From assembly GCA_029547805.1 (NCBI GenBank), contig JAKPOP010000018.1:1-64000 (forward strand): a stretch of DNA of 64,000 nucleotides. Reading direction: 5' to 3'. The stretch's first letter is position 1, and every line of letters starts with the position of its first letter. Both the position numbers and the translations under genes were made by a program. Shown in pieces: positions 9,799-20,277 of this stretch. Under the pieces are notes generated by a model. That model was not told where the DNA came from and searched no databases. It worked only from the letters and a program-made list of their open reading frames with translations. The stretch is from Deltaproteobacteria bacterium (GTDB taxonomy: Bacteria; Myxococcota_A; UBA9042; DTJE01).

Positions 9799-12480
9799 TC
9801 AGGGGGCGGTGGCCGGGACCTCCACCTGCTGGAGGAGATTCCCGTCCAGGTCCAGGATGCGCACCACGAGGCGATCGCAGAGGGTCTCGACGATGGCGAA
9901 GTTCGCGATGCCGTAGATGCCGTGCCATGGCTGGGGGAAGTCCTCGGGGACGGGACAGACGTCCGGGTCCATGTGCCCATTGAGTCCCCCGATGATGAAC
10001 GAGGCGACTCCGTTCACGTCCCCCCACTCGATCCCGTGCATGTGGCCGTGGAATGCCGCCTGGACCCCCGTCTGGGCCAGCAGGGGATAGAGGGTGGTCC
10101 GGACGCTCCACTCGCCGGTGTAGTTGCACTCTTCGTTCCACTGGGCGGTATAGGGAGGCTCATGGATGAAGAAGAGGCGCCAGCGGGCGGTCTGGAACGG
10201 CCGCTGGCTGGCCTCACGTCGGATCCAGGCCACCTCTCCCCAGTCGCTCTCCGGGGTCGCGAAATAGAGGTCTCGGACCCAGCCGCCTCCGATCCAGGCG
10301 TTGCCCAGCCGGGCGGACCAGAAGGCCTCGCCCAGCCCGTCGGCCACCTCGTCCCAGTTTCCCTGGGGCAGCGCGAAGGACTGGAAGTACTCGTCGAGGT
10401 TCTTGGAGTCGTGGTTGCCCGGGACGGCCCAGATGGCCACCCGGCTTCCCAGGGGTCGGATCCCCTCGAAGAAGGCGTCGTACTCCTCCCGCAATCCCGA
10501 GATCGTCAGGTCCCCGGAGACGATGGCGAAGTCCACGTCCTCCGCCAGGGCGATGGCGCTCATCCGCGCCAGGTTTGCGATGCTCGCATGGGCGTCGGCG
10601 AAGACCGCGAACCGCACCGGCACGGCCCGGTCCGGGAGGGTCCGGAAGGAGAGCACCCCGGTCTTCAGGTCTCCGACCGAGACCCGGTAGGGGATCTCGG
10701 TCCCCGGGGCCAGTCCCGTCAGCGTCACCTCATACTGTCCGTTGCCGTCAGGGGATCCGCAGTGGGTCTGCTCATCGTCATCATCGGGCCACAGGACCAC
10801 GCATCCCGGCTCGCTCCGAGGTGGCTCCAGTCGCCACAGCACCGTGGCCTCGGTGTCCGTCACCCGCTGGAGCAGCGGTCCCCGAAGGAAGGTGGCGTCT
10901 TCGGCCGGTGTCCAGGGAAGCGTGTCCGGCCGTTCCTCGCAGCCCTCCGGCACCTGCCGCGGGGCGGCCGGTTCGTGTCCTCCAATGGTCGGCGGGTCGC
11001 AGGGCGTCGCGTCGGCCTGTCCCAGCAATTCCTCCAGCGAGAAGCACCGATAGGCCATCTCGTGGATCGGGGGCCTCCCGGCAGCCAGCCAGAACAGGCG
11101 CCGTTCCGGGTCGAAGATCACGAAGTGCATTGGCCCGTTGGACCCCAGGCCGACGTTGTTGTCCCAGTTCTTCTCCTCAAGGGCCGAACGGGAGGGGACC
11201 TCCCCCGACCAGGCATCGACGATGTCCTGCATGACCCGGGCCAGGCCATCGGGATCCAGGCGCCCGTGGAAAGAACCGTAAAAGCCGGGGGTCAGCAGCT
11301 GCCGGAGCCGGTCAAAGCGCTTGAGACTCCCGTCCCCCGGGTTCGGGTCGTCCAGTTCGGCCATCGTCGGTGACACAAAGTGATTCGTGGCGAACACGAT
11401 GCCCCGCTCGCCCGGACGGAGGACCTCGATGGCCTTAGGCGCCTTCTCGAAGATCGCCCCGGTCCGGCCGTCCCCGTCTCCCACCACCAGCGTTCCGGTC
11501 ATCATCGGCGTCTCGGCCCGCACGAAGTCCTCGACCTCCTGGAGGGACCGGAAGCGCGAGAGGATCTGCCGGGTCATCTGGACGTTGCTTCGCCCCTGGG
11601 CCGTGGTCACTGAGGAGTCCGCCGGGTCGATGGCGTTGGTGCCCAGCGAGATGCCCGCCTCGTTGATCCCCGTATAGGGGGACAGGTTCATCGGGAACCC
11701 GATCACCGCGTGGGGAATGCCATCGGCCGGTTGTCGGACCTGGATTGTCGGGTTCTGATGCACGATCGAGATGTCCATGCTGCCCCAGTCCAGGTTGCGG
11801 GCATGGAGCAGGCGCCCGTCGGTCGTGGCCGGGCCCGTGGCCAGGACCCCGGAGCAGGACTCCCGGGGAGGGACCCAGTCGGGGGGCAGTCCATGGAGCA
11901 CGAACTGGAGCATCACGTCCCCGCCGTTCAGCACCAGGCAGCGGGTCATGTCCATGCCCACGTCCCCGGTTTCCTCCACGAGCCCCTCGCACTCCTCGAT
12001 CACGTCGGGGTAGGCCGTGGCCCAGAGGATGTCCAGGACCCCGGTCTGCTCCGCCAGTTCCGGCAGCATCGACATGAGGGGGTCCTGGTCGATGAAGTCC
12101 ATCGCCTGGGCGATCAGGTCGTGAAGCAGTCTTCCCTGCTGACGTCCCATCTGCCGGGGGGTGCCGGCCAGCCAGAGGACCCGGATGCCCTCGCGCATCT
12201 CCACGTGGGGCTCCACCGCATCCTCGGGAAGGGGGGGCTCCCCGGGGTCCTCAGGGCCCAGGTCCAGTCCCCCGTCGGACCCGGGGTCGGCACCCGGATC
12301 CAACATCCCCTCGTCGGGGAGCGGGACCTCGGACCCGTCCCGTCCCGTGTCGGCCGGTTGCCACGCGTCGGGACTCCCGAGGTCCCCGGGGGAGGACGTT
12401 CCACCGCAGCCTCCCAGGATCAGGACCGAGGCCACCGAGAACATCCACGTCCATCGTCGAGGGCGGGTCATGGTGTGCAA
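9799..12480 (-). CDS. Fusion lipoprotein: C45-type acyltransferase/peptidase plus purple-acid-phosphatase-like phosphoesterase
   Basis: This 893-aa predicted lipoprotein (lipobox ILGGC) has an acidic linker and two catalytic modules. Residues about 95-480 resemble peptidase C45/acyl-CoA:6-APA acyltransferase Ntn-hydrolases, with a candidate autoprocessing nucleophile Cys209 (ESCSGVLATG), then GRLLHARNLDW and NEAGISLGTNA. Residues about 525-612 look like the FnIII-like domain of purple acid phosphatases. The rest is a calcineurin-like phosphoesterase with D629-A-H631, GDLT, GNHD (688-691), FFIHEPPY and HGHMHG (811-816). The TTG at 12480 is taken as start because GGAG lies 7 bases upstream; an ATG at 12471 is the alternative. 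Substrates are unknown; a surface enzyme acting on amide- and phosphate-containing lipids or peptides would fit. Confidence 0.8.
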   Translation of the reverse strand: MHTMTRPRRWTWMFSVASVLILGGCGGTSSPGDLGSPDAWQPADTGRDGSEVPLPDEGMLDPGADPGSDGGLDLGPEDPGEPPLPEDAVEPHVEMREGIRVLWLAGTPRQMGRQQGRLLHDLIAQAMDFIDQDPLMSMLPELAEQTGVLDILWATAYPDVIEECEGLVEETGDVGMDMTRCLVLNGGDVMLQFVLHGLPPDWVPPRESCSGVLATGPATTDGRLLHARNLDWGSMDISIVHQNPTIQVRQPADGIPHAVIGFPMNLSPYTGINEAGISLGTNAIDPADSSVTTAQGRSNVQMTRQILSRFRSLQEVEDFVRAETPMMTGTLVVGDGDGRTGAIFEKAPKAIEVLRPGERGIVFATNHFVSPTMAELDDPNPGDGSLKRFDRLRQLLTPGFYGSFHGRLDPDGLARVMQDIVDAWSGEVPSRSALEEKNWDNNVGLGSNGPMHFVIFDPERRLFWLAAGRPPIHEMAYRCFSLEELLGQADATPCDPPTIGGHEPAAPRQVPEGCEERPDTLPWTPAEDATFLRGPLLQRVTDTEATVLWRLEPPRSEPGCVVLWPDDDDEQTHCGSPDGNGQYEVTLTGLAPGTEIPYRVSVGDLKTGVLSFRTLPDRAVPVRFAVFADAHASIANLARMSAIALAEDVDFAIVSGDLTISGLREEYDAFFEGIRPLGSRVAIWAVPGNHDSKNLDEYFQSFALPQGNWDEVADGLGEAFWSARLGNAWIGGGWVRDLYFATPESDWGEVAWIRREASQRPFQTARWRLFFIHEPPYTAQWNEECNYTGEWSVRTTLYPLLAQTGVQAAFHGHMHGIEWGDVNGVASFIIGGLNGHMDPDVCPVPEDFPQPWHGIYGIANFAIVETLCDRLVVRILDLDGNLLQQVEVPATAP

Positions 12481-12536
12481 GGGGGATCTCCGAACGAGTC
12501 ACGCAGATTCTAGGGGAAGCGTGGCGCTTGTCGAGG

Positions 12537-13793
12537 TCAGAGGACGGTCCAGGATCGCCCCAGGGAGGAATGGCGCGCCGAGGTCAGCACGGTGTCCCCG
12601 TCGGGGCCGGCCTCGATCAGGATCGTGTAGATGGCATCGGCCCTGGGCCCCGGGTGCTGCTGGACCCGCACGATCATCCCCGTGAGTCCCAGGTGGGGTC
12701 CCGAGAGCATGCGGATGCGTGTCCTCTCCTTCAGCACCGGCGAGGAGGGGGTGTACCGGGTGACCGGTCCGGCCTGTCCCTGGTCCGATTCCTCGCCTGC
12801 AGCAGGGGTCTGGTCTTCTGGACGGTCGCCACCGGCCATGGGTTCGGCGACCTGGGCCTCCAGAGCCGTCGGATCGGCCTCCCCGGCTTGCGAGACCTCG
12901 GCCGTATTCGGGTCCCCGCCGGCCTCGGGGGCTTCCGCCCGGGCCGGGCGTCTGCGAAGCACCTTCGGCGGGGTCGCCGGTTCGTTCTGCGTCCCGGCGG
13001 GGGTGTCCAGCAGCACCCAGGAGAGGCCCAGAGAACCGTGGTTCACCTGGGTTCGTCCCTCCTCGCCCCCGGGGCCACTCAGGGTCAGCGCGTAGGTGAT
13101 GGCGGTCTTCTTGTCCCGGATCCCCGAGATGAACCCCTCCCAACCGGCGTACTTGCCCTTGAGCACCTTCACCCGGGTGTTGCGTTGTAGCAACACCTCG
13201 GGCCGGGTCGCCCGCCGGGGACCTGTCGATTTCCGGGCGAGGGCCTTGCGGGTCCCGCCGTCCGCACGGGTCTTCGTGCCGGCGCGGGACCGCGAGGGAG
13301 CCTTCCGAGGGGAGGCCTCCTGCGTTCCGGGAGAGGCCTTTCCAGGCACCTCCAGCAACTCCCACTTCCGGCCCAGGCTGCTCTCGCTCACCTGGGTGCG
13401 CACGACCCGTCCCGTGGGGCTGCGGAGCGACAGTGTGCAGATCATGCCCCGGGGGCTCGTCTTGCACCACCGGATGACTCCCTCCAGGCCCGCATAGGCC
13501 CCTTCGCGCATCCGTGCCGGAAGACCCACGCGGAGATTCGGTTGCGCGGCGTCGAGCCCGGACGCCGGTCGAGGCGGGCGGATCTTCGCCTCCGGGGGTG
13601 TCGGTGTGACCAGTGTTCGTGGCTCCTGCCGGCGGGTCGGGGCCTCCCGGTGCTGCTCCAGGACGGAGATCAGCATCCGGAGCCGGTTCCGCTGGGCCGT
13701 GAGGTCGTCGATCTGCCTGTCGAGGGAATTCGCCTCCTCGAGGAGGCGCCGAATCTCCTGCCCGACGATATCCATGATCTGGGGTTGCTTCAT
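12537..13793 (-). CDS. Protein with three KOW-like repeats (unknown function)
   Basis: This 418-aa soluble protein has no signal peptide. The ATG at 13793 follows GAGGAAG. A coiled coil (about 12-52) is followed by three related modules at 87-149, 206-263 and 357-418. Each reads roughly RVxxLxGxYAGxEGxI, a beta-rich middle (YTLxLxxPxG) and a closing SSLGRxWxLL. The opening resembles the KOW motif found in ribosomal proteins and NusG/Spt5. The first linker (150-200) is strongly basic and the second (285-345) strongly acidic, which suggests nucleic-acid or ribosome binding. It does not match a family I can name. It follows the phosphoesterase fusion on the minus strand only by position. Confidence 0.75.
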   Translation of the reverse strand: MKQPQIMDIVGQEIRRLLEEANSLDRQIDDLTAQRNRLRMLISVLEQHREAPTRRQEPRTLVTPTPPEAKIRPPRPASGLDAAQPNLRVGLPARMREGAYAGLEGVIRWCKTSPRGMICTLSLRSPTGRVVRTQVSESSLGRKWELLEVPGKASPGTQEASPRKAPSRSRAGTKTRADGGTRKALARKSTGPRRATRPEVLLQRNTRVKVLKGKYAGWEGFISGIRDKKTAITYALTLSGPGGEEGRTQVNHGSLGLSWVLLDTPAGTQNEPATPPKVLRRRPARAEAPEAGGDPNTAEVSQAGEADPTALEAQVAEPMAGGDRPEDQTPAAGEESDQGQAGPVTRYTPSSPVLKERTRIRMLSGPHLGLTGMIVRVQQHPGPRADAIYTILIEAGPDGDTVLTSARHSSLGRSWTVL

Positions 13794-14020
13794 CGCTCTT
13801 CCTCGCGCCATGAAAAACCGTACCGGGTGGCGGCCACCGGACTGGCACATCCAGGATAGGATGCAGGCGTTGTGTTGTCAATGAGTGGCATCGGGAAGTG
13901 GGGGCCGGTCCAGGGAGAGGGAGGGATGTGTTCCGGGGGGAGCGATATGCATGGCCATGGAAGCGGGATATCCTCCACGACGAGACGGGGCATCCTGCCG
14001 GCAAGGGATGCCCGCGGAAT

Positions 14021-16598: not shown

Positions 16599-16632
16599 CA
16601 CCGTGTTCCGGGGTCAAAGGAGGGAGGCGACC

Positions 16633-19600
16633 ATGAAGAGGTTCGCGTGGCTCTTCTGTGGGGTGATCTGGGCCTGCGGCGGGGGTTCCGGGAGCGGGGA
16701 TCCGGGTGGCGGACCCGACATCCCCGTGGACGGTTCCGCGGTGGACCTGCCCGAGGACGTGTCGACTGACCAGGGCCGGGACGTCGGAATCGATGCGGCC
16801 GGGGACCCGGGCGCTGATTCCGGCGGCGACGCCGTCGCAGACCCGGGCGCCTGCCTCTGCGAGGCGGTGGGCCCCTGCTGCGACGGCTGCCAGCCGATTC
16901 ATGACGGCGATCCCTGCGGCGGCGAGGCCCCTTGCATGGAGGCCGGCGTGTGCCGGTCCGGGGCCTGTGAGGACGAGGCGCCCGTGGTCTGTCCCCCTCC
17001 CGATGCGTGCCACCGGGGGGAGGGGCAGTGCAATCCCGCATCGGGCCTCTGCGAGTACGAGGCCGCCGAGGATGGCCAGGCCTGCCCGGCCCTGCCCGAG
17101 ACTCCTGGTAGCGGCTGGTGCTTCCAGGGGGCCTGCCTGGGGTTCGGGCAATGCGACCACCGGACCTACGGCCAGCCCTTCGGGTCGGCCTGCAACTTCC
17201 CGGGGGAGTGCGCCTCGGGGATCTGCCGCGAGTGGGGCGACGGGTGGACCGCCACCTGCGCGACCCCCTGCGGTCGGGACCTGCCGGACTGCCCGGAAGG
17301 GGCGGTCTGCATCCGGTTCCCCGAGGGGTCCTTCTGTCGCCCGGGAACCGCCGACGCGACCCTTCCGGGGGATGCCTCGGGGCGGCGGTTCCAGGTCTGC
17401 AACCATGATGCCGACTGCGCCGGGGACCTCTGCCTGGGGATCGACGGCAAGCGGTTCTGTGCGGACCCCTGCGACGACGGGGCGGGAGCGGCCGCCCCGG
17501 AACGGTGCGGCCCCTGCGGGGTCTGCCGGGACAACGGCGACGAACTGGGATTCAAGCACAAGTTCTACTGCGTGCCGCTGGGGGTGATGGAATTCGGCCA
17601 GCCCTGCGGCTTCTCCGGGGAGTGCGCGACCCGCTTCTGCCAGGACGGGTTCTGCAGCGGCCAGTGCCTCTCTCTGGGCGAGGGCCTCTCGACCTGTCCC
17701 GACCACATGGAGTGCGTGGCGGGACCCATCGCGGCGGACCCCACGATCCAGATCTGCGTCCCGAAGGGCGAGGCCGGGAAGGGGTTCTTCGAGCCCTGCG
17801 TGGCCGACTGGTCCTGCACCGGGGACCGGAAGTGCCTGTCGGTGGCCGGGGAGACGCGCTGTTCGGTGGCCTGCTCCGAGGAGGCGCCCTGCCCCGAGGG
17901 GACCTGCGTGCAGGACGATGCCGGGGGCCTCTCCCTCTGCGTCCCGGCGGACCTGGTGGGGGTGCGGGGGCAGGGGGAGGCCTGCCAGGGGACCTGGCAG
18001 TGCGCCGAGGGGCGCTTCTGCTACGGCGGGGCCTGCCTGTCGCCCTGTCCCGATGACGGCGACTGCGGGGCGCCTGCGACCTGCATCTCCGACGCCTTGT
18101 TCCAGGTCCAGTACTGCACGGTGCCCTGTGGTCCCGAAGAGACCTGTCCCTCGGGCCTGATCTGCGTCCAGGGGTTCTGCATGCTGTCCGCCCAGGGCGG
18201 GGGCTATCTCCTCGGCACCTGCCGCAACGACCAGGATTGCGAGACGGGGGTCTGCCGGAAGGGGGTCTGTACCGAGGCCTGCTCGCCGGATCTGCCCTGC
18301 GAGGGCGCCCAGCCGATTCCTGAGCAGCCCGATGGCCTCTGCCGGCCTTGCGACCCGGCCTTCTACGACACCGACTGCAACGACGGCGGGTGGGGCATGA
18401 ACACCTGCATCCAGGGCAGCGACGGGAGCCATTTCTGCGCCACCGACTGCACCTTCCAGGATCTCTGTCCCCTGGGGACCCGATGCTACTCCACGGGGTT
18501 CCAGAGCGTCTGTGCCCCCATTGCCTTCAACTGCAACGACTCGATTGCCTGCCTGCCCGACGGGACCTGCGCCCGGCGTCTTCCGGGCGGGGCCTTGTGC
18601 CGATCGAACGAGGCCTGCCGCTCGGGGGTCTGCGACGACGGTGTCTGCGGGCCGGCGCCGGCCTGCACGGTGGATGCCGATTGCGGCTGTGCCCAGAAAT
18701 TCTGCTCGGAGGGGGCTTGCCGCCTGGTCCCGGGCCTGGTCCGGGAGACCGAGCCCAACGACGTGATGCCCGAGATGCTCTCCGGGAATGGCGGGAGTCT
18801 GGCGGCGGCGCTGTATCCCGAGGGGGACCTCCCGGACGTGGACCGCTTCCAGGTGAGCCTGCGGGCGGGGCAGGCGCTGGACGTCTTCACGTCGGCCCTC
18901 TGCGGCGCAGAAGGGGACACCCTGGTCCGCCTGCTGCAGGCCGACGGGACGCCCATCGCCGGATGGGAGAATGACGACAACAGTTTCTTCGACTGGTTCT
19001 CGAGCCTGTGGGGATACCGCGCCGAGGCGGACCAGGACGTCGTGGTCGAGGTGGTCCAGTCCCCCTTCGTCACGGGCTACGCCCGGTTCCCCTACCTCCT
19101 GACCTGGCGGGTCTATTCCGTGGCGGGGAACGACTCCTGCGAGGGGGCCTTCCCCCTGGCCCCCGGAACCCAGGAGGGGGACCTCGGGGCGGCAACGAAC
19201 CAGGTCTCGGCGCCGGCCTGCACCGGCACCCCGGGCCTGGGCCGGGACCTCTCCTACGAGGTGACGGTGCCGCCGGGGCAGGTGCTCCGGGCCCAGGTCG
19301 ACTCGGGCATCGACGCGATGATTGCCCTGCTGGGGGATTGCGGGGCCCCGGAGGCCTCGTGCCTGGCCGGCTCGGACCAGGTCCACGGGGCCGGGCAGGA
19401 GTCCCTGGCCTGGTGGAACCAGGGAGCCGAACCGGCCCGGGTGATCCTGGTGGTGGACACCCCGGCGATGGACGTCTTCGGCCCCTTCACGATCGAGATC
19501 TCCCTCACGACGCCCCCGGTCCCGGCCAACGATCGCCCCGAGGGGGCCATCGACGTCGTGTCGGGGGTTCCGGTCTCGGGGACGCTGATCGGCGCCGCGA

Positions 19601-20277
19601 ATGACGCCGATCCGGGGGACCCGGGGTGCGCCGGTCGCGCCTTGCCGGGCCCCGACGTCTTCTACCGCCTGGAGGTTCCCGCCGGGGACTTCCTGACCGT
19701 CGAGGTCCTGTCCTCCCTGGGCGGAGTCCCCTTCCTGTGGCTGTCGGAAGACCCCGGGGTGCCGGGGACCTGCGTGGCGGCGGGACAGGGCTTCGTGTCC
19801 TGGCTCGCCTCGGAGACCACGGTGCTGTTGCTGGCCGTTGATGCTCCGGCGGCCTCGGTGACGCCCGACTTCACGTTGCTGGCGGTGATGGGGCCCGCCG
19901 ATGCCTGCTTCGGACCCTGCGACCCGGCGGCGGCCCCTGCCTGTCATCCGTCGGACCCCCGGTTCCTGTGCACCTGCGACCCCGACCGCCGGGTCTGGAC
20001 CCGGACCGACTGCGAGACCCGGTGCCAGGAGGGTCAGGCCCTCGGCGGGGCCTGCCATGCCTTCACCACCCCCGGATTCCAGAGGGACGGATGCCTCTGC
20101 GACTGGGCCTGCGACGCCGCGACCACCGCGGACCAGTGCAACCAGATGGCCTACACCAACTGCACGTGCGCCGCCTCGGACCCCTGTGGCTGGGTGGGCG
20201 ACCAGACCTGCGACCAGTTCTGCGCCACCGAGTATCCCGGGGGCTTCGAGGACCCGGTGGACTGTGCCCAACCCTGA
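16633..20277 (+). CDS. Large cysteine-rich PPC-domain lipoprotein
   Basis: This 1,214-aa predicted surface or periplasmic lipoprotein has a lipobox Cys at about residue 15 (GVIWACGG) and an Asp/Gly/Pro-rich linker. A long tract (about 70-690) of short Cys-rich repeats of the type CxxDxDCxxGxCxxGxC follows, probably densely disulfide-bonded. Three PPC-like beta-sandwich domains come next, at about 700-830 (opening ETEPND), 831-960 and 965-1085. A last Cys-rich tail ends in EDPVDCAQP. AGGGAGG precedes the ATG. No catalytic motif is seen; adhesion, scaffolding or ligand binding are possibilities. The nearby HtrA protease and CnoX-like thioredoxin fit a need for folding help, but that link is inferred. 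Confidence 0.85.
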   Translation: MKRFAWLFCGVIWACGGGSGSGDPGGGPDIPVDGSAVDLPEDVSTDQGRDVGIDAAGDPGADSGGDAVADPGACLCEAVGPCCDGCQPIHDGDPCGGEAPCMEAGVCRSGACEDEAPVVCPPPDACHRGEGQCNPASGLCEYEAAEDGQACPALPETPGSGWCFQGACLGFGQCDHRTYGQPFGSACNFPGECASGICREWGDGWTATCATPCGRDLPDCPEGAVCIRFPEGSFCRPGTADATLPGDASGRRFQVCNHDADCAGDLCLGIDGKRFCADPCDDGAGAAAPERCGPCGVCRDNGDELGFKHKFYCVPLGVMEFGQPCGFSGECATRFCQDGFCSGQCLSLGEGLSTCPDHMECVAGPIAADPTIQICVPKGEAGKGFFEPCVADWSCTGDRKCLSVAGETRCSVACSEEAPCPEGTCVQDDAGGLSLCVPADLVGVRGQGEACQGTWQCAEGRFCYGGACLSPCPDDGDCGAPATCISDALFQVQYCTVPCGPEETCPSGLICVQGFCMLSAQGGGYLLGTCRNDQDCETGVCRKGVCTEACSPDLPCEGAQPIPEQPDGLCRPCDPAFYDTDCNDGGWGMNTCIQGSDGSHFCATDCTFQDLCPLGTRCYSTGFQSVCAPIAFNCNDSIACLPDGTCARRLPGGALCRSNEACRSGVCDDGVCGPAPACTVDADCGCAQKFCSEGACRLVPGLVRETEPNDVMPEMLSGNGGSLAAALYPEGDLPDVDRFQVSLRAGQALDVFTSALCGAEGDTLVRLLQADGTPIAGWENDDNSFFDWFSSLWGYRAEADQDVVVEVVQSPFVTGYARFPYLLTWRVYSVAGNDSCEGAFPLAPGTQEGDLGAATNQVSAPACTGTPGLGRDLSYEVTVPPGQVLRAQVDSGIDAMIALLGDCGAPEASCLAGSDQVHGAGQESLAWWNQGAEPARVILVVDTPAMDVFGPFTIEISLTTPPVPANDRPEGAIDVVSGVPVSGTLIGAANDADPGDPGCAGRALPGPDVFYRLEVPAGDFLTVEVLSSLGGVPFLWLSEDPGVPGTCVAAGQGFVSWLASETTVLLLAVDAPAASVTPDFTLLAVMGPADACFGPCDPAAAPACHPSDPRFLCTCDPDRRVWTRTDCETRCQEGQALGGACHAFTTPGFQRDGCLCDWACDAATTADQCNQMAYTNCTCAASDPCGWVGDQTCDQFCATEYPGGFEDPVDCAQP

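Follow-up and report, generated by a model that had tools for sequence, protein, structure and literature searches.

Within the window, the whole 64,000-nucleotide stretch of DNA analysed here, one uninterrupted open reading frame of 893 aa runs on the minus strand from position 12480 to position 9799 with no internal stops. The frame and its family profile matches define a lipoprotein in which a C45 module is fused to an FnIII-like domain and a metallophosphoesterase (MPP). All features described below lie on the minus strand. The frame starts with TTG, and direct reading shows a ribosome-binding-like GGAG ahead of it (12488..12491). The TTG start and the GGAG are kept in the same arrangement in the orthologue of a sister species (G001), whereas an ATG three codons downstream is not. 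The N-terminus was likewise read directly as a signal peptide (residues 1-24, 12409..12480) with the lipobox LGG at its end, followed by Cys25 (12406..12408) as the predicted lipidated residue. This LGGC at residues 22-25, found by eye, is kept in G001 and marks the protein as a predicted bacterial lipoprotein. A linker of acidic, Pro/Gly/Asp-rich composition follows (residues 26-90, 12211..12405). The sequence-only reading had proposed that two modules are joined on one lipoprotein, and the frame without a stop and the lipoprotein signal predicted from it agree with this.

A co-directional gene for a KOW-motif protein lies immediately upstream (12537..13850), in the same order and with the same spacing in G001. 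Its product is 437 aa in length with repeated KOW-like segments, and it is a possible operon partner of the fusion gene. Elsewhere in the window, positions 16600-20277 encode a long, lipoprotein-like protein that is rich in Cys and contains many Cys-rich repeats.

The first module, spanning about residues 91-500, is an Ntn module of the C45 type, i.e. the isopenicillin-N-acyltransferase (IAT)/acid-ceramidase type. Residues 106-425 match NCBIfam NF040521 with 147.4 bits against a cut-off of 85. Profile match, alignment and model together delimit a pro-segment or alpha chain (residues 91-208, 11857..12210) and a beta-chain catalytic domain (residues 209-500, 10981..11856), the latter also supported by Foldseek. 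Cys209 (11854..11856), the predicted autocleavage site and N-terminal nucleophile, shows no variation in an alignment of 22 C45 relatives, and neither do Arg228 (11797..11799) and Asp231 (11788..11790) of the RNLDW motif, nor Asn366 (11383..11385) of the TNH motif. Asn366 is the predicted oxyanion residue and aligns with the TNH of IAT. The order of a proenzyme is thus present, with a pro-segment preceding the Cys nucleophile and with Asp231 and Asn366 conserved. A mixed full-length alignment put the C45 C-termini in the wrong place, and the two halves were therefore modelled separately. The AlphaFold (AF2) model of the C45 half has a mean pLDDT of 90.7 and a pTM of 0.92, and forms a single compact domain that includes the pro-segment. 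It has the alpha-beta-beta-alpha fold of Ntn enzymes. Foldseek places the precursor and mature forms of IAT (2x1c-2x1e) first, with TM scores of 0.77-0.80 by target, and human NAAA and acid ceramidase next. In a profile search this half matched IAT with E about 6e-7, the other match being one uncharacterised protein. The earlier assignment of Cys209 to an autoprocessing-type C45 Ntn-hydrolase has the position right, and the family profile, predicted fold and conserved residues are all consistent with it. The window's genome also encodes a second, distant C45-like protein of 721 aa (L002:274-2439, G000 C7), in which a large insert precedes the nucleophile region.

The second half begins with an FnIII-like beta domain (residues 529-618, 10627..10896). 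Its profile matches fall below the cut-off (DUF7800, E = 9e-4; Pur_ac_phosph_N, E = 0.014), and we accept the domain because the fold match, in the model and by Foldseek, supports them. The metallophosphoesterase domain follows (residues 619-893, 9802..10626), identified by Pfam PF00149, alignment, model, Foldseek and profile search. Residues 623-815 match the calcineurin-like family PF00149 with 54.4 bits against a gathering cut-off of 21.5. The metal ligands are D629 and H631 (D-x-H), D657 (GD), N689 (GNH[D/E], which also contains the catalytic H690), H773, and H813 and H815 (GHxH). An alignment of 27 MPP relatives shows no variation at D629, D657, N689, H690, H773 or H815, and at least 90% of the sequences have H813; the fusion and its close relatives keep H631, which is replaced in the most distant ones. 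The AF2 model of this half has pLDDT = 91.0 and pTM = 0.91. Both modules are complete, with conserved residues and confidently predicted folds, and neither gives any sign that its active site fails to form. A PADLOC search gave only a weak MPP match, and no support for a role in defence.

The best Foldseek matches of the second half (3zk4, 6gj9 and 4dhl) are plant purple acid phosphatases (PAPs) with the identical FnIII plus MPP layout, and plant PAPs are also matched in the profile search with E down to 8e-28. In layout and profile similarity it thus agrees with the PAPs. The PAP motif set is DxG, GDxxY, GNH[E/D], VxxH and GHxH (PMC2553084). The fusion has GDLTI in place of GDxxY, with Ile660 where the Tyr ligand would be, and DAH at residues 629-631 in place of DxG. 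On these two substitutions it falls outside the purple group, and we predict a non-purple phosphoesterase related to the PAPs. The description of the enzyme as purple-acid-phosphatase-like consequently holds for the fold and the nearest sequences and fails on the motif definition. The DAH, GNHD and HGHMH motifs named in the same reading are all present, as is the FnIII-like domain, the latter by its fold match.

The same fusion is found in G001, the only other genome of the genus that was searched, as an 898-aa open frame with 83% identity and the same neighbours on contig JAGOKF010000003.1 (Myxococcota, Go_SlDig_bin_299). The name suggests a MAG from a sludge digester. The picture differs outside the genus: eleven further family genomes, and those of 379 sampled phylum genomes that gave strong matches, have C45 and MPP matches in different frames, or a match to one half alone. 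Three family genomes (G003, G011 and G012) have separate C45 and MPP genes 5-11 kb apart on the same contig. A scan of genome contigs with the single protein found no relative, while a C45 profile scan of the GTDB collection found 39 loci, one of them fused, on G001's own contig. Among the long C45 frames listed from other members of the phylum, 26 of at least 690 aa gave no MPP match with the A4 profile. In L081 and L088 the long frames upstream were rejected as high-GC artefacts. No C45-MPP fusion was found in the plasmid collection. On searches that only sampled the phylum, with a pattern scan of limited sensitivity, the fusion appears limited to one genus. The C45-FnIII-MPP architecture thus does occur in another genome, that of the sister species, and is replaced by separate or single halves elsewhere in the family and phylum samples. 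The literature search found no described C45-MPP fusion, in keeping with the sequence-only reading, in which no described enzyme with this combination was known.

In the trees of both halves the fused sequences are placed among stand-alone members of the family. The fused C45 adjoins a stand-alone gene from another genus of the family, and the fused MPP forms one clade with twelve family relatives (SH-aLRT 100). The junction (residues 501-528, 10897..10980) was defined by comparison with the stand-alone proteins, and is where the natural C45 C-terminus meets the MPP module at its post-linker start. Stand-alone homologues start with their own lipoprotein signals. Where the stand-alone C45 proteins have '...FSLEELLGYPDATPCTPETIP' as their C-terminus, the fusion protein reads '...FSLEELLGQADATPCDPPTIGGHEPAAPRQVPEGCEE...' across the junction, and the stand-alone MPP proteins have their own signal and acidic linker and then resume at '...FHWASGCEG...'. 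This indicates that the whole C45 protein was kept, and that the MPP lost its secretion signal and linker and nothing else. The simplest reading is that the gene derived from stand-alone lipoprotein genes in a single event on the genus stem. Between the two species dN/dS is 0.11-0.12 for C45 and 0.16 for MPP, compared with 0.25 at the junction and 0.54 in the signal and linker. The low values in C45 and MPP indicate that both modules are under purifying selection.

Six genomes (G003, G005, G008, G009, G011 and G012) have a GH106 (rhamnosidase-like) gene close to stand-alone C45 genes, stand-alone MPP genes or both, and the association of GH106 with these lipoproteins recurs at L033, L034, L035, L045, L046 and L141. 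The GH106 cluster of G012 also has a gene for a chlorophyllase/PETase-like lipoprotein, given for L033 as well, and G011 has a similar predicted lipoprotein at that position. In the window's own genome GH106 lies on a different contig from the fusion, and the C45 and MPP genes found near GH106 belong mostly to subfamilies other than those that were fused. The two families also occur in other fusions. At L042:4742-6997 (G003 C16) an FnIII-MPP carries a C-terminal EEP (endonuclease/exonuclease/phosphatase) domain, and at L041:3512-7390 (G009 C121) a predicted lipoprotein is a triple hydrolase fusion of GH84 (beta-N-acetylglucosaminidase), FnIII-MPP and EEP. In other Myxococcota an MMPL/RND-type permease frame with a C-terminal C45/AAT domain is found at L121:3288-7052 and similarly at L115, L116 and L117, the MMPL match exceeding the cut-off in L121 only. 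The GH106 context and the EEP and GH84 fusions hint at degradation of glycan- or lipid-like material at the surface.

Taken as a whole, we think it probable that the gene encodes a bifunctional surface lipoprotein, in which a C45 amide hydrolase and an FnIII-metallophosphoesterase were fused on the stem of one Myxococcota genus, and which cleaves itself with its chains remaining tethered. Judged by conserved residues and models, both enzymatic modules are most likely functional. The chain would be exported and then lipidated at Cys25. Self-cleavage before Cys209 would split it into an alpha chain (25-208), which carries the lipid anchor, and a beta chain (209-893), and the two would stay bound like those of IAT, NAAA and acid ceramidase. 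Both the active site of the C45 half and the phosphoesterase at the C-terminus would thereby remain tethered to the membrane, the former hydrolysing an amide that is linear and probably acyl, the latter hydrolysing a phosphoester at its binuclear-metal site. Both activities may help to break down complex organic polymers or lipids at the surface. The alpha and beta chains of NAAA and acid ceramidase remain associated after cleavage (PMC9140057), and from this we infer that the lipid-bearing alpha chain would hold the beta chain, so that the anchor would not be lost by self-cleavage.

The opposite outcome, that a cut before Cys209 sheds the C45 beta chain plus the phosphoesterase from the cell, is improbable. 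It is true that the predicted cut would leave the lipid anchor with the alpha chain, but the retained alpha chains of NAAA and acid ceramidase, the single compact domain that the model forms with the pro-segment, and the lipoprotein layout shared by the stand-alone C45 relatives all argue against release. Slightly less improbable, yet still unlikely, is that the C45 half is an acyltransferase like IAT rather than a hydrolase, its acylated product perhaps being trimmed by the phosphoesterase. IAT is the nearest solved fold, and the sequence profile matches are limited to IAT and one uncharacterised protein. However, there is no acyl-CoA at an extracytoplasmic location, and NAAA, acid ceramidase and bile salt hydrolase, of the same fold class, are hydrolases. 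That an assembly chimera or annotation artefact has joined two genes is very unlikely, to the point of being negligible. The source is a draft assembly of 32 contigs, but the frame is also open, over 898 aa, in an independent second species, and neither has a stop or frameshift between the modules that would undo the fusion; in the second species the fusion is full-length, with the same neighbours and 83% identity, and purifying selection extends across both modules.

The strongest competitor to the coupled, bifunctional reading is that the fusion provides co-anchoring only, merely saving one signal peptide and anchor for uncoupled activities on unrelated substrates. We regard this as quite possible, if somewhat short of an even chance. 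The poorly conserved junction is in its favour, and fusion of the MPP to other partners (EEP in L042; GH84 and EEP in L041) suggests general-purpose domain shuffling. Against it, G003, G011 and G012 each have a GH106 gene with both a stand-alone C45 gene and a stand-alone MPP gene within several kb of it, an arrangement that points to a shared pathway. A closer coupling, in which one N-acylated phosphoester lipid, either an N-acyl phospholipid or a sphingophospholipid, loses its headgroup to the phosphoesterase and then its N-acyl chain to C45, is a long shot. If true, this bacterial protein would unite in one chain the equivalents of the sphingomyelinase-ceramidase pair, with a ceramidase/NAAA-like C45 site.

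Under the preferred reading of a tethered bifunctional lipoprotein, the protein is a new combination of known domain families, with no C45-phosphoesterase fusion in the literature searched or in the phylum genomes sampled outside the genus. It connects, in the manner of a natural 'Rosetta stone' fusion, two large and poorly characterised families of Myxococcota surface enzymes, and offers one tractable protein for finding their joint substrate. It is also a test case for whether the chains stay together in an Ntn enzyme whose anchor and active site are separated by the cleavage point.

The closest relatives are family lipoproteins with a stand-alone C45 or FnIII-MPP module. The nearest of them are 50-56% identical to each half, and they have the same signal and acidic-linker layout, but are encoded by two genes, with the MPP sometimes fused to EEP or to GH84 and EEP. 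Penicillium IAT (2x1c-2x1e; NF040521) shares the pro-segment and Ntn fold, the Cys nucleophile, the Asp and the TNH motif, with TM = 0.8 by target, and both of its chains stay together after cleavage. The fusion differs from IAT as a predicted extracytoplasmic lipoprotein with a C-terminal FnIII-phosphoesterase, at about 18% identity. NAAA and acid ceramidase (peptidase family C89) share the fold and the order of pro-segment then beta chain, and the RNxD motif after the Cys, but they have no phosphoesterase domain and only 11-13% identity. For the second half, the plant PAPs (kidney bean PAP, wheat PAPhy and lupin PPD1) share the FnIII-like domain followed by MPP, with GNHD and GHxH, and differ in having the Tyr and DxG that the predicted non-purple fusion lacks. 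The class III phosphodiesterases GpdQ and Rv0805 share the ligand set D-x-H, GD, GNHD, H and GHxH, score below the PAPs structurally and have no N-terminal FnIII domain.
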